From Candidatus Gastranaerophilales bacterium (GTDB lineage: Bacteria; Cyanobacteriota; Vampirovibrionia; Gastranaerophilales; Gastranaerophilaceae), in assembly GCA_947584965.1 (NCBI GenBank), contig CANPWQ010000017.1:1-36577 (forward strand): a stretch of DNA of 36,577 nucleotides, in the 5' to 3' direction. Positions within the stretch are counted from its first letter, which is position 1. The number at the start of each line of letters is the position of its first letter. Of this stretch, positions 2,363 to 31,329 are shown one piece after another. A program made the translations under genes and the position numbers. The notes beneath the pieces are model-generated. The model saw only the letters and a program-made list of their open reading frames with translations. It was not told where the DNA came from and did not search any database.

Positions 2363-3748
2363 ATGGATTTACATATATTAATAAGTGCAGTAATAATGAT
2401 ACTTTTAATAAGTTTATTGATATTAGTGCATGAAGCAGGACATTTTCTTGCAGCGAAATTAGTTGGTGTCAGGGTAGATAAATTCGGTTTTGGGCTTCCT
2501 ATCGGGCCTACTTTGTTTTCAAAAAAGGTAGGTGAAACGGAAATATTAATCCATGCGTTTTTGCTGGGCGGTTATGTATCTTTTCCCGATGATGAACAGG
2601 ATTGCGACCTGCCTATGGATTCACCCTTAAGATTTTCCAATAAAAAAGTAGGGCAAAGAGCCTTGGTTATTTCTGCGGGTGTTATATGTAATGTTATTCT
2701 TGCTTATATTTTAATATTTTTTACGGGATTAATATGGAAACATCTGCCCGAAAATACTTTTACGGTTCGATTTGAAAAATTTACTCCGTCTGCTGTTGAA
2801 TCAATAAAAACTTCAGGCATTCAAAAAGGGGATATTATTTATTCAATTAATGGCTTAAAAGTTAATTATCCCATTGCGTTAAATAAATTTTTCAATTATT
2901 CAAAAGAGTTTGACGGGTTTATTAATCCTCAAACGGCAGAAAAAAAACTTGATGAATTAATTAAATTAAATCCTCAATATAATGCAGATGATATTGTAAA
3001 ATCGGGAAGTACAATAAAATTACCCGTATTCACTGATGAAGAACCTATTAATTTAACATTAGATAATATTTTAGGAATAGGGAAATATAAAACCGGTGAA
3101 ATTGCACTTTCTGACTCGCAAAAAGAACTTCGCAATAAAATCAATTATAACGGCAGTTATAAATTAGAGGCTGATACTCCTTTAAGTGATATAGCAAAAG
3201 CAATATCCGATACAAAAAAACCGATTTCAATCGTAATATTAAGAAATAATGAACAAATAAATTTAAGCCCTGTATATTCATCACGCGAGGGCATACTGGG
3301 TATTGAGCAATCATACAGTGAAAATTATACTAAGACTGATAATCTTATATCGGTAATAAAAGGAACAAATAAATATATAAATTACAATATGGGATTTATG
3401 GTTTATACTTTGGGAAAATTATTTACGGGCAATATTCCGATGAGTGAAATGAACGGAATTATTGCAATAGCCAAAATAGGTACAGAGCTTATTGCATATA
3501 AAGGTTTATTTGATGGAATACTGTTAACCGCAATAATATCTTTAAACCTTGCATTAATAAACATACTACCTATACCAGCATTAGACGGCGGACATTTATT
3601 GTTTTTAATAATAGAAAAAGTAACAGGCAGACCTGTCAGCAAAAAGTTTGTAGAAGTTTTAAGTAATTTCTTTTTCTATTTATTGATAGTCTTAATGGTG
3701 TTTATTGTATATAATGATATACACGGGTGGATTATAGGAAAATTCTAA
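2363..3748 (+). CDS. rseP: RseP-type site-2 membrane metalloprotease
   Basis: This 461-residue membrane protein is an M50 site-2 protease. The zinc motif HEAGH is at residues 23-27 inside the first membrane helix. A PDZ-type region containing an IQKGDIIYSING motif is near residue 155, and the second active-site motif NILPIPALDGGH is near residues 400-411. A last membrane helix is near the C-terminus. It would cut transmembrane anti-sigma factors or signal peptide remnants within the inner membrane. The middle region (about 180-320) is longer than a single PDZ domain and charged, so it may hold a second degenerate PDZ. The ATG at 2363 is preceded by GGGA at 2351-2354. It heads an operon; gmk starts one base after its stop codon. 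Confidence 0.93.
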   Translation: MDLHILISAVIMILLISLLILVHEAGHFLAAKLVGVRVDKFGFGLPIGPTLFSKKVGETEILIHAFLLGGYVSFPDDEQDCDLPMDSPLRFSNKKVGQRALVISAGVICNVILAYILIFFTGLIWKHLPENTFTVRFEKFTPSAVESIKTSGIQKGDIIYSINGLKVNYPIALNKFFNYSKEFDGFINPQTAEKKLDELIKLNPQYNADDIVKSGSTIKLPVFTDEEPINLTLDNILGIGKYKTGEIALSDSQKELRNKINYNGSYKLEADTPLSDIAKAISDTKKPISIVILRNNEQINLSPVYSSREGILGIEQSYSENYTKTDNLISVIKGTNKYINYNMGFMVYTLGKLFTGNIPMSEMNGIIAIAKIGTELIAYKGLFDGILLTAIISLNLALINILPIPALDGGHLLFLIIEKVTGRPVSKKFVEVLSNFFFYLLIVLMVFIVYNDIHGWIIGKF

Positions 3749-3749
3749 A

Positions 3750-4310
3750 ATGGCAGGTCATTTATATATAATATCGGGGTGTTCGGGTGTAGGAAAAGGA
3801 ACTTTATTAAAAAAGTTTCTTGAACGTAATCCGCAGATAATATTATCAGTATCAGCAACAACACGTCAGCCCCGTATAGGCGAAATAAACGGAGTAAATT
3901 ATTTTTTTGTAAGTGAAGAAGAATTTGAAGCGTCGGTTAAAAATGATGAATTTCTTGAATGGGCGCGTTTTAGCGGTAATTATTACGGGACGAAAAAAAG
4001 TTTTGTTGAAAAGACCCTGGCAAAAGGTATTGATTTAATACTTGAAATAGATGTTCAGGGTGCAAAGCAGGTAAAGGAAAAAATGCAAGAAGCCGTCAGC
4101 ATATTTATTATGCCGCCCTCAATAGAGATTTTGGAAGAACGGCTTAGAGGCAGACATACAGAGGATGAAGAAACAATAAAAAAACGCTTAAGTGAAGCTC
4201 AAAGAGAAATAAACGCAGGTGAATTATTTGATTATAAAATAGTTAATGATAATCTTGATGAAGCACTTAACCGTCTGCAGGAAGTATTTGATAAGAAAAA
4301 AGGCTTATAA
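3750..4310 (+). CDS. gmk: Guanylate kinase
   Basis: The 186-residue protein has the P-loop GCSGVGKGT at residues 9-17. The GMP-binding region contains STRQPR-like (ATTRQPRIGE) and NGVNYFF motifs, and the late LRGRHTEDEETI lid segment is present. It converts GMP and ATP to GDP and ADP in the cytoplasm. Length and motif order are normal for the family. It starts one base after rseP ends and overlaps coaBC by one base (TAATG), so translational coupling is likely. In many bacteria rpoZ lies between gmk and coaBC; there is no rpoZ here. Confidence 0.96.
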   Translation: MAGHLYIISGCSGVGKGTLLKKFLERNPQIILSVSATTRQPRIGEINGVNYFFVSEEEFEASVKNDEFLEWARFSGNYYGTKKSFVEKTLAKGIDLILEIDVQGAKQVKEKMQEAVSIFIMPPSIEILEERLRGRHTEDEETIKKRLSEAQREINAGELFDYKIVNDNLDEALNRLQEVFDKKKGL

Positions 4311-5491
4311 TGTTAACGGGTAAAAAAATTTTATTGGGAATAACGGGAGCTATCGCAGCATATAAAATATGCGAGCTTATAAGGTTATTTAAAAAAAACG
4401 GAGCGCAAGTGCAGGTTGTAGTTACTCCAAACGCTTTGAATTTTGTTACAAAAACTACACTTGAAACATTGAGTCAAAACCCGTTATATGTTGAACAATT
4501 TGAAATAAAAGATTATAAACCCGAACACATCGCATTATGTGATGACAGTGATATTTTTGTCATTGCGCCAATAAGCGCTAATACAATAGCAAAACTTACC
4601 CATGGGATTTGCGATAATCTTTTAACTTCAATATATTGCGCGTATAAAAAACCTGTAATTATTGCACCTTGCATGAATACGGGCATGTGGGAAAATCCTG
4701 CCGTGCAAAAGAATATAGAAACTCTTAAATCGCGCGAAGTAAAAATAGTAGAACCCGAAACGGGTTATCTTGCCTGTGGAACGGAGGGGAAAGGCAGATT
4801 AGCGGATATTAATAAAATATTTGAAACTGCAAAACAAATTTTATTGCCCGAGCAAATACTAAAAGGTAAGAGAGTTATCGTAACAGCAGGCGGAACAAAA
4901 GAAGATATTGATATTGCAAGATATATAGGCAACAACAGCTCGGGAAAAATGGGTATAGCTCTTGCAGACAGCGCAAATTCTCTCGGGGCTGATGTTGTTT
5001 TAATTTCAACGGTTGAAGCAAAAAGAAACTATCGGGTTATAAATGTTAAAAGTGCGGATGAAATGTATAATGCCGTAAAATCAGAATTTGTAAATGCTGA
5101 TATACTGGCAATGGCAGCGGCCGTCAGCGATTATAGAGTAAAAAATAAAATTGGCGGAAAAATAAAAAAAACAGGCGCAAGTTTAACTTTGGAACTTGTT
5201 GAAAATCCCGATATTTTGCGTGAAATGTGCGCAATAAAGGAATCCAATCAAACTGTTATAGGATTTTGCGCCGAAAGCGAAAATTTAATTGAAAATGCAA
5301 AAGAAAAAATTAAAAATAAAGGCTGCGACTACATTTGCGCTAATGATGTATCTCAAAAAGATATAGGCTTCTCGTCAAATTATAATGAATTGTATATAAT
5401 AAATAAAGAAAATAAAATTTATCATATTGATAAAACAGATAAAAATAAAGCAGCATACGAGATTTGGAAATATATTTATGGAAAACATTAA
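4310..5491 (+). CDS. coaBC: Bifunctional phosphopantothenoylcysteine decarboxylase/synthetase
   Basis: This 393-residue protein carries both CoA-synthesis activities. The N-terminal flavoprotein CoaC part (about 1-185) has GITGAIAAYK at the start, the SANTIAKLTHG active-site His segment and the PCMNTGMWENP motif. The catalytic Cys lies in GYLACGTEGKGRL. The C-terminal CoaB part (about 186-393) begins with the GKRVIVTAGGTKEDID segment and has the AAAVSDYR motif. It joins cysteine to phosphopantothenate and then decarboxylates the product. It overlaps gmk by one base and the next gene by 14 bases. It looks complete. Confidence 0.96.
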   Translation: MLTGKKILLGITGAIAAYKICELIRLFKKNGAQVQVVVTPNALNFVTKTTLETLSQNPLYVEQFEIKDYKPEHIALCDDSDIFVIAPISANTIAKLTHGICDNLLTSIYCAYKKPVIIAPCMNTGMWENPAVQKNIETLKSREVKIVEPETGYLACGTEGKGRLADINKIFETAKQILLPEQILKGKRVIVTAGGTKEDIDIARYIGNNSSGKMGIALADSANSLGADVVLISTVEAKRNYRVINVKSADEMYNAVKSEFVNADILAMAAAVSDYRVKNKIGGKIKKTGASLTLELVENPDILREMCAIKESNQTVIGFCAESENLIENAKEKIKNKGCDYICANDVSQKDIGFSSNYNELYIINKENKIYHIDKTDKNKAAYEIWKYIYGKH

Positions 5492-21237: not shown

Positions 21238-21921
21238 ATGAATACAAAATCAAGATTAAATGAAGTACATAATTTACCCGGAACTCTTGTATGCGTTGAA
21301 GGAATAGACGGGTCAGGAAAATCAACTCAGCTTGTTATATTGCGGGATTGGTTGAAATCATTGAAACAGGATGTTATTTTTACCGAATGGAATTCATCTG
21401 ATTTGATTTCACAGACAACAAAGCTCGCAAAAAAGAAAAATTTGTTAAGCCCGAGAACATTTTCGCTGCTGCATGCAGTGGATTTTGCCGACAGACTGGA
21501 GCAGGTTATTATTCCCGCACTTAAAGCAGGATTTATAGTTCTTGCCGACAGATATGTATATACTGCATTCGCCCGCGATGTGGCAAGAGGTGTTGATAGA
21601 GATTGGGTAAGAAAAGTTTACGGTTTTGCGGTTCGTCCCGATTTAACACTTTATTTTAATGTTACCGAAGATGTTTCTTTGGAGCGTATCTGTGCTAATC
21701 GTTCACCGAAGTTTTATGAAGCGGGCATGGATTTAAAAATCAGTAATGACCCTTATGAAAGTTACAAAATTTTCCAAAAACGTGTTAATGATGAATACAG
21801 GAAAATGATTAAAGAGTACGGTTTGGTTGAAATAGATGCAAATGATACTATTCATAATAAACAGTTATTCTTTAGAGAACAAGTCAGGAGTGTACTCGCT
21901 CAAAAGGGGATTGAAATTTGA
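21238..21921 (+). CDS. Thymidylate-kinase-like protein, copy 1
   Basis: This 227-residue P-loop kinase of the thymidylate kinase family has GIDGSGKSTQ near residues 21-30, the DRYVYTAFARD segment (Tmk DR[YH] motif) near 102-112, and a PDLTLYFNV strand. It differs from standard Tmk. The usual AYQG after the DR motif is replaced by ARDVARG, and the region after the lid reads FYEAGMDLKISNDPYESY. It may phosphorylate dTMP or a related nucleotide. It is immediately followed, with a one-base overlap, by a paralogue. Confidence 0.8.
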   Translation: MNTKSRLNEVHNLPGTLVCVEGIDGSGKSTQLVILRDWLKSLKQDVIFTEWNSSDLISQTTKLAKKKNLLSPRTFSLLHAVDFADRLEQVIIPALKAGFIVLADRYVYTAFARDVARGVDRDWVRKVYGFAVRPDLTLYFNVTEDVSLERICANRSPKFYEAGMDLKISNDPYESYKIFQKRVNDEYRKMIKEYGLVEIDANDTIHNKQLFFREQVRSVLAQKGIEI

Positions 21922-22580
21922 TGGCTAAATATAAATCAAAACACGGTTATGAGGGAAAATTAATCGTTATAGAGGGTACGGACGGTTCGGGGAAATCCAC
22001 TCAAATCGAAAAATTAAAACGCTGGATTGAAGATCAATCATACGGGGTTATGGTCAGTGAGTGGAAAACATCAAAATTTATAGCTGACGCAATAAATGAC
22101 GCAAAAGACAGAAACTTGTTAAATGCAACCACATTTAGTCTTTTGTATGCGGCAGATTTCGCCGACAGATTAGAGCAGGTTATTATTCCCGCACTTAAAG
22201 CAGGATTTGTCGTTATTTTGGACAGGTATGTTTATACGGCTTATGCCCGTGACAAAGTAAGAGGCCACAATATTGAATGGCTTAAAAATCTTTATGAATA
22301 TGCGCCTGAGCCTGATATGGTGTTTTATTTGGATGTACCCGTTGAAATCTTGCTTAAACGAATTATAGGAACAACGGGGCTTGATTATTGGGAATCAGGC
22401 AGAGATATAGGTTTAAGTACGGATTTTTATAAAAGTTTTCAGATATATCAAAGTAAATGCCTTGATGAATACCATAAAATGATAGATGAGTACGGTTTTA
22501 TTGCTATCGACGGCACTTTAAGTATTAAAGATATTCATAAAAAAATTATTTCGGAAGTAAAAAATCTGCTTGATGATTAA
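21921..22580 (+). CDS. Thymidylate-kinase-like protein, copy 2
   Basis: This 219-residue paralogue of the upstream gene has GTDGSGKSTQ near residues 20-29, the nearly identical block ADFADRLEQVIIPALKAG, and DRYVYTAYARD. The lid region differs (TGLDYWESGRDIGLSTD). The two proteins clearly come from a tandem duplication that has diverged. They may form a heterodimer, since Tmk enzymes are dimers. The ATG at 21921 overlaps the previous stop (TGATG) and has GGGG upstream; an in-frame TTG at 21918 is not needed. Confidence 0.8.
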   Translation: MAKYKSKHGYEGKLIVIEGTDGSGKSTQIEKLKRWIEDQSYGVMVSEWKTSKFIADAINDAKDRNLLNATTFSLLYAADFADRLEQVIIPALKAGFVVILDRYVYTAYARDKVRGHNIEWLKNLYEYAPEPDMVFYLDVPVEILLKRIIGTTGLDYWESGRDIGLSTDFYKSFQIYQSKCLDEYHKMIDEYGFIAIDGTLSIKDIHKKIISEVKNLLDD

Positions 22581-22607: not shown

Positions 22608-22636
22608 TTGATAAATTTTGAAAAAAAAGTTATAAT
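22608..22636 (+). promoter_or_regulatory. Strong promoter of dciA, probably leaderless
   Basis: TTGATA at 22608-22613 and a perfect TATAAT at 22631-22636 are exactly 17 bases apart. The dciA ATG at 22644 begins seven bases after the -10 box, where transcription should start. No Shine-Dalgarno sequence is present. Confidence 0.7.
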
Positions 22637-22643
22637 TATACGT

Positions 22644-22982
22644 ATGAAAAAATCATCAAACTCAAATTTTGTACTTTTACAGGATATATTTAAGGATTTA
22701 AATATAAATTATGATGAAAAAATTGCGGTTAATTCCGAAAAATTATCAAAGTTTTGGAGTGAAACAGTAGGAGAAAAAATTTCAAAATTTTCAAAATTTT
22801 TAGAGTTAACTTCAAATAATGTTTTAATAATTACCTGTTCTGATTCTTATGCCGCAAATGAGTTATATTATGTAAAAAGTAAATTAATTGAGTCTATGAA
22901 TGAAAAATTAAAAAAATTGGGAATAGAAATAAAAGATATAAAATTTGATTACAAAAAATGGAAAGAACAAAAAGATGAATAA
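22644..22982 (+). CDS. dciA: DciA-like (DUF721) replicative helicase loader
   Basis: This 112-residue protein has the DUF721 fold layout: an N-terminal helix (LLQDIFKDL), a central SEKLSKFWSETVGEKISKFSK segment and a LTSNNVLIITCSDSYAANELYYVKSKLIESMNEKL segment ending in a KDIKF strand. DciA proteins help load DnaB helicase in bacteria lacking DnaC or DnaI. The protein is shorter than many DciA members and lacks the long disordered tail. An in-frame codon at 22608 would extend it, but that stretch is the promoter. It overlaps the next gene by eight bases. Confidence 0.72.
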   Translation: MKKSSNSNFVLLQDIFKDLNINYDEKIAVNSEKLSKFWSETVGEKISKFSKFLELTSNNVLIITCSDSYAANELYYVKSKLIESMNEKLKKLGIEIKDIKFDYKKWKEQKDE

Positions 22983-25176
22983 GAAAAGAAAAGGTTTTTC
23001 AATCGCAGAATTATTAATTGCACTTTTGATAATAAGTATAGTTTTGGCGGCTGCAATACCTACAATAACGAAAAAAAATTCAGCAGCAGGTGAAAAAATT
23101 TGGCGTTGGGCAGGTACTAATAATAGTGCATATTTTGGAGTCGGGGCAAATCAAAGTGCTATAATCGGTGCTTCTCAAATGCCTTTTGCTAATGTTAGTG
23201 ACAATGAAAAGCCTAAACAAGTATTTGTTATGGATGATATTGATCCTTCAAATGTCAATTTTACTACAGACGGAGATAAACTTGTTCTTATAAAACGAGC
23301 TCCGGAAGGTACAGACAAAGGAAGTGGTAAAAATGTTCTTGACAATTTTATTAATTCACATATTTCATTTTATTATTTAAGAAATGGGGCAGATGCTACT
23401 GCTGCTGATGATGTTACTTATGCGGGAAGATTAAATTTAGATCAGCATAATATTGCACTTGGTATTGGTACTCTTCAACATATGGTGCAGGTAGAAACAG
23501 ATAATAGTGACACTGCTTTTAAAGGATATAATACGGCATTAGGACATTATTCATTATTTTATAATACAGAAGGTCAATGGAATACAGCGGTTGGGGAAAA
23601 GGCATTAGCTTTTAATGTTGATGGAAATGATAATACTGCAGTAGGATACGCTACTATGTCCGGTAAGAGTGAAAATTCCGGTTCGGATAGTGGCGTTTCA
23701 CCTTATAATTCAACTGCATTAGGAGCTTATGCATTGCAAACCAATAATGGTAATAATAATACGGCAGTTGGTATATCTTCTCTTTCTGCGTCAACAGGCA
23801 GTTTTAATACGGCTATTGGAGCTAATTCATGCAGGAATTTGAAAGGTGACTATAATATTTGTATAGGTTATAATGCAGGTGTTACTAAAGATGAAGATAC
23901 AGAAGATTCTTCTGATGAAGGCGGATATGGGTTTTATCTCGGAATTAAAACTGCAGAAGAAAATGTTGCAGAAGCTCCTTTGTTAGAGGGACATACAAGT
24001 CGGAACGGAACCTCAGGTGTTAAAGATTTAATAGCTAATGTTGATAATTTTCAGATAAGAACTCAAGATTCTTCCGGCAGTATTTTCAATGTTGATGCTT
24101 TATCTACTAAAGCAGGCGGAGTAAATGGTAGATTTAGTTTTATATTCCGTGATCCCAGAAAGACAAACAGTATCGCTTCTGTTCTTACGTTGCAGGAACG
24201 TTGCGGATCTGGGGCCATAGATGCTGATATTTGCTCCACAACTGCAGGTAATGTATTATTTATGACCTCCGATATAGGTAAGTCTTTCAGAAATATATCA
24301 TTTAACGATATTTTAAAAATAGTATTTCCTGTTAATGCAGGTGATACAACTAAAACAGTAAAATTCAATATAAGTGATTCTGTTTTATTGGATCAAGGCG
24401 GTAAGGTTCAAGCAAGTCTTTTAGAATTAAATAATAATGTTTTAATTGATAGAGAAGCTAAATTCAAGCTCAATATAACAAGTGCTAACGGATTTTTATT
24501 GCAAAGTATTGAAGATGGAAATAATCCGTTTGATGTAATTAAAGCACAAGGAACAACTTTAAATATTAATGCAAAAGATAATTTAACATTTGATGGAGGT
24601 AAAAATTATATAAATTTGTATAGCAAGGCAGGAGCAAGAATTGCTATACAAGGTCAAGAGTCAAATGGTATTACATTAAATTCTGACGGATTAATTCAAG
24701 CCGGCAATCTTATATTAAGCCAGTTAGCATCTCATGCACAGGGAAATTTAAAAATTATAATTGATGATTTGTATTCAAAATTAAGTACGGCTTCTGATGT
24801 GCGTTTAAAGAATATATCCGGTGATAACACTGCAGGGTTAAAGGAAATTACTGCGCTTGAAATTAAAAATTATACATATAAAAATGATAAAAAGAAAACT
24901 CCGCATGTTGGTGTTATTGCACAGCAATTGCAAAAAATATTTCCGAACTCTGTATTTAAAGGCGATGATGGTTATTTAAGAATTACAAAAGATGAAATGT
25001 TTTATGCTTTGATTAATTCTGTTAAGGAACTGCTAGCAAAAATTCAGGATTTAACCGCTAAAATAACCGGACTTGATAAACGTATAACAGAGCTTGAAAA
25101 ACAAAATCAAATACTTAAAAATCAAAATGCAGAGTTTGAAAAACGGCTTTCACAATTAGAAAAGAAAGCAAAATAA
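22975..25176 (+). CDS. Prepilin-like protein fused to YadA-head-like and peptidase S74 chaperone domains
   Basis: The 733-residue protein starts with a type IV prepilin signal: MNKKRKG, cleavage between Gly7 and Phe8, then FSIAELLIALL with Glu at +5 and a hydrophobic helix to about residue 27. Residues about 185-302 hold six or so degenerate repeats with NTAVG/NTALG/NTAIG cores about 20-30 residues apart, like the left-handed beta-roll head of YadA-type adhesins. Residues about 310-600 look beta-rich, like a tailspike stem. At Ser607 begins SDVRLK, the self-cleavage motif of the peptidase S74 intramolecular chaperone, followed by EITALEIKNYTYK and HVGVIAQQLQKIFP. Residues about 690-733 form a coiled coil. 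S74 domains trimerise phage tail fibres and then cut themselves off. The likely picture is a surface fibre exported by a type IV pilus or type II secretion machine. The start at 22975 is chosen for the prepilin signal; it overlaps dciA by eight bases. Confidence 0.88.
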   Translation: MNKKRKGFSIAELLIALLIISIVLAAAIPTITKKNSAAGEKIWRWAGTNNSAYFGVGANQSAIIGASQMPFANVSDNEKPKQVFVMDDIDPSNVNFTTDGDKLVLIKRAPEGTDKGSGKNVLDNFINSHISFYYLRNGADATAADDVTYAGRLNLDQHNIALGIGTLQHMVQVETDNSDTAFKGYNTALGHYSLFYNTEGQWNTAVGEKALAFNVDGNDNTAVGYATMSGKSENSGSDSGVSPYNSTALGAYALQTNNGNNNTAVGISSLSASTGSFNTAIGANSCRNLKGDYNICIGYNAGVTKDEDTEDSSDEGGYGFYLGIKTAEENVAEAPLLEGHTSRNGTSGVKDLIANVDNFQIRTQDSSGSIFNVDALSTKAGGVNGRFSFIFRDPRKTNSIASVLTLQERCGSGAIDADICSTTAGNVLFMTSDIGKSFRNISFNDILKIVFPVNAGDTTKTVKFNISDSVLLDQGGKVQASLLELNNNVLIDREAKFKLNITSANGFLLQSIEDGNNPFDVIKAQGTTLNINAKDNLTFDGGKNYINLYSKAGARIAIQGQESNGITLNSDGLIQAGNLILSQLASHAQGNLKIIIDDLYSKLSTASDVRLKNISGDNTAGLKEITALEIKNYTYKNDKKKTPHVGVIAQQLQKIFPNSVFKGDDGYLRITKDEMFYALINSVKELLAKIQDLTAKITGLDKRITELEKQNQILKNQNAEFEKRLSQLEKKAK

Positions 25177-25186
25177 AAATAAAAAT

Positions 25187-25211
25187 CCCCGTTTAATAAG
25201 CGGGGTTTTTT
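25187..25211 (+). terminator. Terminator after the prepilin-S74 gene
   Basis: Arms CCCCG (25187-25191) and CGGGG (25201-25205), with a nine-base loop and a following T7 run, lie 10 bases after the stop codon. This is a typical intrinsic terminator. The -10 box of rqcP starts only a few bases after the T-run. Confidence 0.8.
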
Positions 25212-30373: not shown

Positions 30374-30622
30374 ATGAAAATATCAGTTTTAACAGCAAGT
30401 TATAATTATGAAAAATATATTTCCCAAACGATAGAAAGTGTTTTAAATCAAACATATACTGATTTTGAATATATTATATTTGATGACGGTTCAACGGATA
30501 ATTCTGTTAACATCATAAAGGAATATGCCAAAAAAGATAAAAGAATTAAATTTTATACTCATGAAAATAATTCAAATAAAAACTTAAATTCCCCCCCCCA
30601 TCACCAAAAACTAACCATTTGA
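30374..30622 (+). CDS. Family 2 glycosyltransferase, N-terminal part (frame broken at C9 tract)
   Basis: This 82-residue frame has the GT2 start KISVLTASYNYEKYISQTIESVLNQ in its normal form and the DDGSTDNS nucleotide-binding motif near residues 36-43. Just after HENN it runs into a tract of nine C at 30591-30599 and ends at a TGA 21 bases later. The next frame (30619-31329) carries the rest of the enzyme. With 10 or 7 C the two frames would read as one protein of about 318 residues. The fragment alone cannot be an active enzyme. Confidence 0.75.
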   Translation: MKISVLTASYNYEKYISQTIESVLNQTYTDFEYIIFDDGSTDNSVNIIKEYAKKDKRIKFYTHENNSNKNLNSPPHHQKLTI

Positions 30623-30660
30623 TTAATGAATATGAAAATAATTTAAATAAAGGGTTAATT
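30561..30660 (+). repeat. Imperfect direct repeat flanking the C9 tract
   Basis: The 30 bases at 30561-30590 (starting ATGAAAATAATTCAAATAAA) recur with a few changes at 30632-30660 (ATGAAAATAATTTAAATAAA). They lie 71 bases apart and enclose the C9 tract. Both copies encode an ENN-x-NK peptide. It looks like a short duplication that inserted about 23 residues between the DDGST region and the NKGLIQTL segment of the enzyme. Confidence 0.6.
30591..30599 (+). repeat. C9 homopolymer at a glycosyltransferase frameshift
   Basis: Nine consecutive C in AT-rich coding DNA mark the point where the glycosyltransferase reading frame breaks. Tracts like this in surface-glycan genes of, for example, Campylobacter change length by slippage and switch genes on and off. 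Here the frame is off at C9 and would be on at C10 or C7. Confidence 0.7.
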
Positions 30661-31329
30661 CAAACATTAAAATGCGGTATTGAAAAATGCAGCGGGGATT
30701 GGATTATTTTTGTTGAAAGTGATGATTATATTTCACCTGATTATATTGCTTCAAAGATAAATGCTTTAAATAAAATTCCTCTGCCTGAGCGGAATAATAT
30801 TGCTTTGGTTTTTAATGATATTATTCCTCTGTATTCTAAAGAAAGACACCAATATCTGGATAAATATTTATCTATTCAAAAAAAATTAATTGCGGAAAAA
30901 TGTTTTAAACAATTTGAATTAATGGAAATAAATATAATTCCTACATTTTCTTGTGTTATGGCAAGGAAAAATGTTTTGCGGGAAATAAATTTTCAATTTG
31001 ATGTTCCCAAATGTTTTGATTGGTATTTGTGGAACAGTATTTTAATTAAATATCCAGCATTATATATAGATAAAAAACTTACAACCTTTAGACTGCATAA
31101 TCAAAGTTATACTATGAAAAAAATTAATAAGAGTGTATATAGAGGGCTTCTGGACATCGGAAAAGAAAAATATCCGAAACTAAAATTGCTTTATTTCCTT
31201 TTTTGTTTGTATAGGAGTAATGTAAGATTTGAAAAAATGTTCCGTCCGTTTGTCAGAATAACAAGCAGGTTTATTTATAAAAATTTATATGTTCAAAATA
31301 CCGTTAAAATAATAACTGAAAAAAACTAA
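30619..31329 (+). CDS. Family 2 glycosyltransferase, C-terminal part (frame broken at C9 tract)
   Basis: This 236-residue frame continues the GT2 enzyme of the previous entry. It has [28 protein letters not shown] in its normal order, where VESDDY holds the metal-binding acidic residues, and a C-terminal acceptor part with [12 protein letters not shown] and [11 protein letters not shown]. Its TTG at 30619 has no ribosome binding site, so it is probably translated only when the upstream frame is restored. It overlaps the convergent ABC ATPase gene by four bases at its 3' end. Confidence 0.75.

Follow-up and report, generated by a model that had tools for sequence, protein, structure and literature searches.

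A prepilin fused to a phage-type S74 chaperone in Gastranaerophilales: a candidate trimeric adhesin of the type IV pilus tip

How can a protein that begins like a type IV pilin also end like the self-cleaving chaperone of a phage tail fiber? This question is raised by a 36,577-nucleotide stretch of Candidatus Gastranaerophilales DNA (contig CANPWQ010000017.1, assembly GCA_947584965.1), hereafter the window, in which a single gene encodes a 733-residue protein that we call the fiber protein. A preliminary description of this DNA had assigned three modules to it, a class III prepilin signal, a β-roll repeat region, and a C-terminal peptidase S74 chaperone with a coiled coil, and the open reading frame together with matches in Pfam and PHROGs bore this out. 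On balance, we favor a reading in which the fiber protein is a modular minor pilin that displays a trimeric adhesin of the phage tailspike type at the tip of a type IV pilus and sheds its S74 chaperone.

Both ends of the protein carry recognizable signature domains. Pfam places N_methyl at residues 3–28 (29.3 bits; cut-off, 21.2) and Peptidase_S74 at residues 607–660 (50.6 bits; cut-off, 22), as the profile search proposed in the preliminary description had anticipated, and NCBIfam adds IV_pilin_GFxxxE (21.6 bits; cut-off, 16.3). The N terminus has the features of a class III prepilin signal, namely Gly before the cut, a hydrophobic residue at +1, Glu at mature position 5, and a hydrophobic α1-N helix. 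The Gly7/Phe8 cut site and the Glu at +5 had been recognized correctly, and Pro29 (mature Pro22) is present in addition. This proline is invariant across 37 aligned sequences, among which it was not a selection criterion; Glu12 (mature Glu5) is likewise invariant there, in rows that were chosen for Glu. Gly or Ala precedes the cut in 118 of 120 prepilin motifs, for which the motif rule demanded Glu5 and a proline near position 22, so that the conservation of these two residues in the motif counts is partly built in. An in-frame TTG upstream of the ATG would lengthen the protein by 10 residues.

The C terminus belongs to the Peptidase_S74 family, a membership on which sequence profile, catalytic motif, and fold all agree. 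The domain starts at Ser607 (SDVRLK), as first described, and the full-length model places a helix behind it at residues 672–732, besides one at residues 10–35. A model of the S74 fragment (like all of our structure predictions, of a monomer) has a mean predicted local distance difference test (pLDDT) score of 81.6, with 88–96 for residues 610–669 and 83–95 along the coil. Foldseek matched this fragment to the ICA domain of MyRF (7dc3; E 2.8e-5, probability 1.00, template modeling (TM) score 0.47–0.55), the only entry at E ≤ 0.001, with 3gw6 and 3gud following at E 0.04–0.24. A profile built from 92 S74 fragments also matched MyRF (8.2e-11) and a putative tail fiber (6.7e-9), as well as a neck appendage protein, an L-shaped tail fiber, and a long tail fiber subunit (4e-5 to 5e-5). 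The S, D, and K of the dyad motif are invariant in 92 aligned S74 fragments, and SDxxxK is kept in all 143 non-redundant S74 open reading frames of the order, 140 times as SDxRxK and, read by eye, three times as SDIKLK, SDRNLK, and SDINVK. Ser607–Lys612 corresponds to S587–K592 of MyRF and thereby to S911–K916 of endoNF, the proven dyad (PMC8326128).

Between these ends lies a shaft of phage tailspike type. The repeat NTAxG occurs at residues 186, 203, 220, 262, and 278, with the variants NIALG at 159 and NICIG at 294, and the full-length model shows spaced short strands at residues 186–297, with block pLDDT values of 82–94 over residues 201–300 except for 48 at 231–240. The tail-spike family PHROG 4636 matches residues 157–270 (E 1.8e-20), a PHROGs tail-fiber match covers residues 555–712, and Bacillus phage tail spikes are ≈36% identical over residues 155–301. 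The repeat region claimed at residues 185–302 therefore stands, whereas its assignment to the YadA type does not: because the 16 Pfam families listed for the protein at E ≤ 1 include none of YadA type, "YadA-head-like" describes a resemblance only. We also rejected a YadA-type trimeric autotransporter, as the protein has neither a Pfam YadA match nor a barrel and its C terminus is S74 plus coiled coil. Phage S74 fibers (K1F endosialidase, 3gw6; neck appendage, 3gud; L-shaped tail fiber, 8hqz; the Bacillus SPO1 group) likewise combine a shaft with a C-terminal chaperone; to our knowledge, these structural proteins carry no prepilin signal.

Constant ends enclose a variable middle. Among 22 proteins of the same genus, pairwise identity, with gaps scored as mismatches, averages 72% for residues 1–35, 33% for 36–160, 40% for 161–302, 17% for 303–460, and 13% for 461–605, compared with 73% for the S74 domain and 69% for the coil. 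The same pattern is seen in 10 paralogues of one genome (G177), whose ends are 97% and 91–93% identical and whose middle is 24–56% identical. Bdellovibrio MAT fibers have an S74-type cleft in the β-helix before S74, and exposure of this cleft by S74 proteolysis is reported to be needed for ligand binding (PMC10769870). Because the variable region occupies the same position as that cleft, we infer by analogy that the hypervariable segment before S74, residues 303–606, forms an adhesive tip.

The most reasonable route of delivery is a type IV filament system, in keeping with the pilus or type II secretion machinery proposed in the preliminary description, and genes for such machinery are found in the same genome. 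This genome has 12 N_methyl matches (the fiber protein included), four T2SSE matches over the cut-off, one Peptidase_A24 (prepilin peptidase), and one secretin. On contig C30, the secretin, a 713-residue PilB/GspE-type ATPase, and a platform-like protein occur in succession, and two further ATPases look PilT-like, the platform-like protein and the PilT-like ATPases being identified by reading their sequences. In a set of 58 related genomes, own genome included, Peptidase_A24 is present in 51 and in all 36 of good quality; the propeller PF05567 of PilY1, the usual tip protein of type IVa pili, was matched in 0 of the 58, yet control genomes gave no match either. The search of the genome suggested earlier thus returned prepilin peptidase, secretin, and pilus-type ATPases, and prepilin–S74 fusions recur in the order. 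Neither of the two results named beforehand as fatal to the idea, a missing S74 match at ≈607–695 and a genome without pilus or secretion genes, is what we found.

These parts can be assembled into a mechanism. The prepilin would sit in the inner membrane and extend its long C-terminal region into the periplasm, and its leader would be cleaved off after Gly7 by prepilin peptidase. MyRF cleaves itself only as a trimer (PMC8326128), and so three fiber chains should fold together and then lose the chaperone before Ser607. In the predicted order of processing, the three chains would join via the C-terminal coiled coil and S74, folding the β-roll and β-helix into a trimeric fiber, and the Ser607–Lys612 dyad would then make its cut, so that the chaperone is lost and the hypervariable end becomes the exposed, mature tip. 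The three α1-N helices would be the first subunits incorporated as the filament grows, and the fiber would be carried through the secretin and presented on the tip of the pilus, where it would act as a variable adhesin. One MAT tip measures ≈40 Å across (PMC10769870), and by analogy a channel wide enough for a pilus should admit a fiber of about this width.

To place the fusion in its phylogenetic context, we searched the 58 relatives, 286 genomes of the order (≥80% complete, drawn evenly), and 386 genomes of the phylum (≥85% complete). S74 was matched in 42 of the 58 relatives, among them all 34 of the same genus, in 151 of the 286, and in 109 of the 386, 12 of which lie outside the order. 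In its own genome, the S74 match is the sole one of its kind. Because identical architecture recurs across many genomes of the order, the fusion is neither a one-off nor an assembly artefact. From 212 relatives in named genomes (Candidatus Gastranaerophilales, Avigastranaerophilus, Melainabacteria, and others), obtained by a pattern-limited and capped scan, 74 loci were kept; because these loci were partly found by the prepilin pattern itself, the S74-only set is the count that matters. Its 60 open reading frames from the order comprise 50 with the prepilin motif in frame, one (L039) with the motif out of frame behind a poly-G run, six cut by contig ends, and three others: L078, with a prepilin-like start by eye; L042, broken at a poly-G run and with a hydrophobic helix in another frame; and L079, a weak S74 match without the motif. 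When all loci are pooled, the 143 non-redundant S74 open reading frames of the order divide into 119 in frame, one in another frame, 17 cut, and six others. Two weak S74 fragments from the relatives set (22 bits, with stops) were left out of the fetched loci.

Outside the order, the open reading frame was refound by the S74 profile in eight of 12 fetched stretches (L202–L213), one of them cut at the 5′ end. The prepilin motif is missing from all seven whose start can be seen, and each of the 12 genomes has a single S74 match. A pattern scan of viral contigs gave two loci with S74 relatives, the S74 open reading frames of which start without a prepilin signal, and there were no plasmid relatives at E 1e-5. 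Separately, G177, which has ten S74-prepilins, also encodes a short S74 protein that lacks a prepilin-type start (L241, positions 3547–4377), perhaps a phage gene.

Copy number and arrangement differ among genera, with the number three recurring. There is mostly one S74 copy per genome in g1, g19, and g28, one to nine in g31, and 11 or 12 matches in each of G078, G177, and G207; from these three genomes and G058, 30 of 36 S74 places were fetched, of which 22 have the motif in frame, six are cut, and two lack it. Families f6 and f7 have tandem arrays of three S74-prepilin genes (L073–L077), and behind the array four of the five loci carry a fourth gene that is prepilin-like and has no S74 domain. 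L073 and L074 are from two near-identical species of one genus, and the Pfam N_methyl match of the fourth gene was obtained in L073; in L076 and L077, it is prepilin-like from its sequence start alone and Pfam gives nothing, and in L075 no fourth gene of this kind is present within the stretch read. In ten further loci, placed in genus g23 by matching spacing, a single S74-prepilin gene is accompanied by two on the opposite strand, and the gene between them in the three loci inspected is presumably metK. Among S74-positive g23 genomes, 25 of 30 have exactly three matches, four have four, and one has two; at least one g23 genome has no S74 match. All four listed S74-positive genomes of g36 have three.

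A quick tree of 83 S74 domains (112 columns), which came with a long-branch warning that affects the f7 set among others, separates the three positions of the metK-type sets. One position is a clade at support 90, and the other two need two changes each because of single intruders, one of them on a very long branch; support for the f7 set is 94, positions 2 and 3 of f6 split, and the deep forks have a support of 31. The recurring number three suits a trimeric product and is no proof of a heterotrimer. A more daring proposal, which we consider improbable, is that the products of the three-gene families form one heterotrimeric fiber that starts the pilus, homotrimeric in the single-gene genus of the window, and that the S74 self-cut acts as a licence by which only a folded trimer passes the secretin. 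If true, a phage folding checkpoint would serve as quality control of pilus assembly, replacing the usual minor-pilin/PilY1 tip.

Runs of G near the start of some relatives point to a further layer of variation. In 13 of 121 non-redundant prepilin-S74 genes, the interval from −260 to +300 bases around the prepilin motif contains 9 or more consecutive G, an enrichment near the motif of ≈25–30-fold over the background of 31 distinct runs in ≈1.39 million distinct 31-mers of the fetched loci. The 13 genes are not independent, because four share one genome and two each share two others. The likeliest ATG, traced for eight of these genes, is in frame in two (L229 and L231) and out of frame in six. 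The frame is broken near a run inside the gene in L039 and L042, and it is open in L064 and L070, where a run is also present; the run of 23 G in L218, which lies close to a contig end and to other runs, looks like an assembly artefact. The fiber gene of the window has no poly-G run. The frame breaks in relatives suggest phase variation, and homopolymer assembly error in metagenome genomes may be an alternative source of them.

Several homopolymer runs were observed in other settings. In G207, S74-prepilin copies near contig ends (L216–L221) have long G or C runs upstream of the motif, perhaps marking assembly breaks in a repeated gene family. Within the window, a glycosyltransferase family 2 gene (30374–31329, + strand) is split at nine C (30591–30599): reading from the ATG at 30374 soon stops, and the remainder is an open reading frame at 30619–31329 in another frame, a pattern suggestive of a phase-variable gene that is switched off, or of a sequencing error. 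Further runs of at least 9 G or C lie far from fiber genes (L040:11369, L058:386, L038:263, and others), and homopolymer switching may be common in the order.

Several observations weigh against the favored reading. The full-length model is weak (mean pLDDT, 63.5; predicted TM score, 0.49), and its fold search returned nothing at E ≤ 0.001. No globular pilin head is visible in it after the short helix, with residues 36–185 mostly of low confidence, which makes normal packing in a filament uncertain. The S74 fragment model is least certain around the dyad itself (block value, 65). The fiber gene adjoins housekeeping genes, and no pilus genes were seen near it. No S74 match was obtained in 135 of the 286 genomes of the order, so the S74 protein is not an obligatory pilus part, and the first S74 gene of L076, one of the f6 copies, reaches only 18.8 bits for N_methyl, below the cut-off of 21.2. 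Glu5 is present in the fiber protein, unlike in the bulky tip subunit GspK, which lacks it; TcpB carries Glu5 and starts assembly (PMC5207764). In the literature searched, we found no description of an assembly route for a pre-formed S74 trimer.

Two of these features, the helix that ends at about residue 35 without a visible pilin head and the position of the gene outside any pilus cluster, would suit a protein for which the class III signal is a mere membrane anchor and whose trimeric S74 fiber remains attached to the inner membrane and acts in the periplasm, or is freed by other proteases, outside any pilus. We regard such an anchor as unlikely, since the Gly or Ala before the cut and the invariant Pro22 are what a processed protein that enters a filament should show, the hypervariable segment and the frame breaks at poly-G suit an outward-facing protein, and the f6/f7 genes adjoin a further prepilin-like gene in most loci. 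Somewhat less probable again is a type II secretion-like pseudopilus that exports and releases the fiber as a secreted or cell-surface product, with the pilin N terminus in the piston instead of at a pilus tip. Pilus and type II secretion proteins are alike, a single secretin was found, and minor pseudopilins also form tip complexes (PMC10191384), but the two PilT-like ATPases, as read from their sequences, suggest a retractile type IV pilus, and pilA, pilB, pilC, pilT, and pilD have been reported in termite Gastranaerophilus (PMC5877343). A phage tail-spike gene or prophage remnant accidentally fused to a pilin start, which the β-roll and S74 matches to phage tail spikes and viral S74 proteins might recall, is very improbable, and we rejected it on synteny and conservation, given the position directly behind dciA that 29 of 41 same-genus loci share, the S74 match in every same-genus relative, the lone S74 match in the genome, the dyad kept throughout the order, and the absence of phage genes among the inspected neighbors.

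The setting of the fiber gene is summarized in Table 1. The 12 same-genus loci in which dciA does not stand directly upstream comprise eight from the multi-copy genomes G008 and G032 and four cut by contig ends. The usual order in the genus is two thymidylate kinase genes, dciA, the fiber gene, and an ABC transporter on the opposite strand. In the window, two thymidylate-kinase-like genes stand in tandem at 21238–22580 (+ strand) with a 4-base overlap, the Pfam search covering the second of them. The terminator-like pattern that follows the fiber gene occurs at four sites in the region, compared with 2.0 in shuffled sequences.

Table 1. Features of the fiber gene and its surroundings (window positions)
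Feature	Coordinates	Strand	Basis
dciA; overlaps fiber gene by 8 bases; conserved upstream neighbor	22608..22982	+	Pfam DciA, 42.7 bits
Prepilin–S74 fusion gene, 733 residues, ATG to stop	22975..25176	+	Open reading frame; Pfam; NCBIfam; S74 match in 34/34 same-genus relatives
Residues 1–7, class III leader ending in Gly7; predicted cut before Phe8	22975..22995	+	N_methyl / TIGR02532; one Peptidase_A24 in genome
Residues 8–35, pilin α1-N helix; mature Glu5 (E12), Pro22 (P29)	22996..23079	+	Alignment; model helix 10–35
Residues 36–160, neck; conserved Trp43	23080..23454	+	Model pLDDT blocks 35–58; 33% mean pairwise identity
Residues 161–302, β-roll repeats (NTAxG), phage tail-spike-like shaft	23455..23880	+	PHROG 4636; modeled strands; Bacillus phage spikes
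Residues 303–606, hypervariable shaft/tip segment, ending at predicted self-cut	23881..24792	+	Identity 17% / 13% versus 73% for S74
Residues 607–665, Peptidase_S74 intramolecular chaperone; Ser607–Lys612 dyad	24793..24969	+	Pfam; fragment model; Foldseek; profile matches
Residues 672–733, C-terminal coiled coil	24988..25173	+	Long helix in both models; Pfam coiled-coil matches all below cut-off
Terminator-like intrinsic hairpin, then seven T	25187..25205	+	Pattern match

Comparison with known systems narrows what is new about the proposed pilus-tip fiber. The modules had been called a combination not usually found, a statement not supported in that form: N_methyl plus S74 (IPR012902–IPR030392), the same two signature domains as in the fiber protein, was among the 15 commonest modular-pilin architectures in 2021 and was read as a peptidase function (PMC8179133). 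The available text of that account says nothing about a trimer, a chaperone role, gene sets, or poly-G runs for N_methyl–S74 pilins, and the main text available from it names neither Gastranaerophilales nor Melainabacteria. Nor is a trimeric pilin new, as CofB and TcpB are trimeric minor pilins predicted or placed at the pilus tip (PMC8179133, PMC10191384). Both are large minor pilins of type IVb pili that form trimers, as predicted for the fiber protein, and TcpB keeps Glu5; CofB differs in having a pilin domain and other C-terminal domains, with no S74 or self-cleavage described in the available texts.

The S74 MATs of Bdellovibrio are cellular, S74-ended proteins with SDxxxK and diverse tips, like the fiber protein; they are trimeric, and self-cleavage is proven for the MAT Bd3182 (PMC10769870). 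They differ at the other end, with an ordinary signal peptide and a conserved ≈130-residue N-terminal β-rich domain, and the class III prepilin signal of the fiber protein sets it apart from that description; the word "pilin" appears nowhere in the main text of the MAT paper (PMC10769870). The membrane transcription factors MYRF and MrfA share membrane anchoring, an S74 (ICA) domain, and the Ser-Lys dyad, and MYRF is the best solved match by both sequence and fold. The MYRF cut frees the N-terminal part from the membrane, whereas the predicted cut in the fiber protein would free the chaperone and leave the N-terminal fiber anchored. In the open-license PMC literature, we found no account of such Gastranaerophilales fibers or of a trimeric S74 pilin. 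Nor did that literature yield a reading of S74 in these pilins as the chaperone of a trimer, or any mention of their distribution across the order, the three-gene sets, the variability of the tip, or the runs of G.

If the proposed mechanism is right, a self-cleaving folding module of phages has been turned into a builder of pilus tips across much of an order of gut bacteria. It would give a concrete answer to how a trimeric fiber is reconciled with pilin assembly, and pilins now catalogued as "S74 peptidases" would gain a different function. The fiber would also be a candidate for the means by which Gastranaerophilales adhere in the gut, equipped with sets of genes and with poly-G runs that resemble on/off switches.

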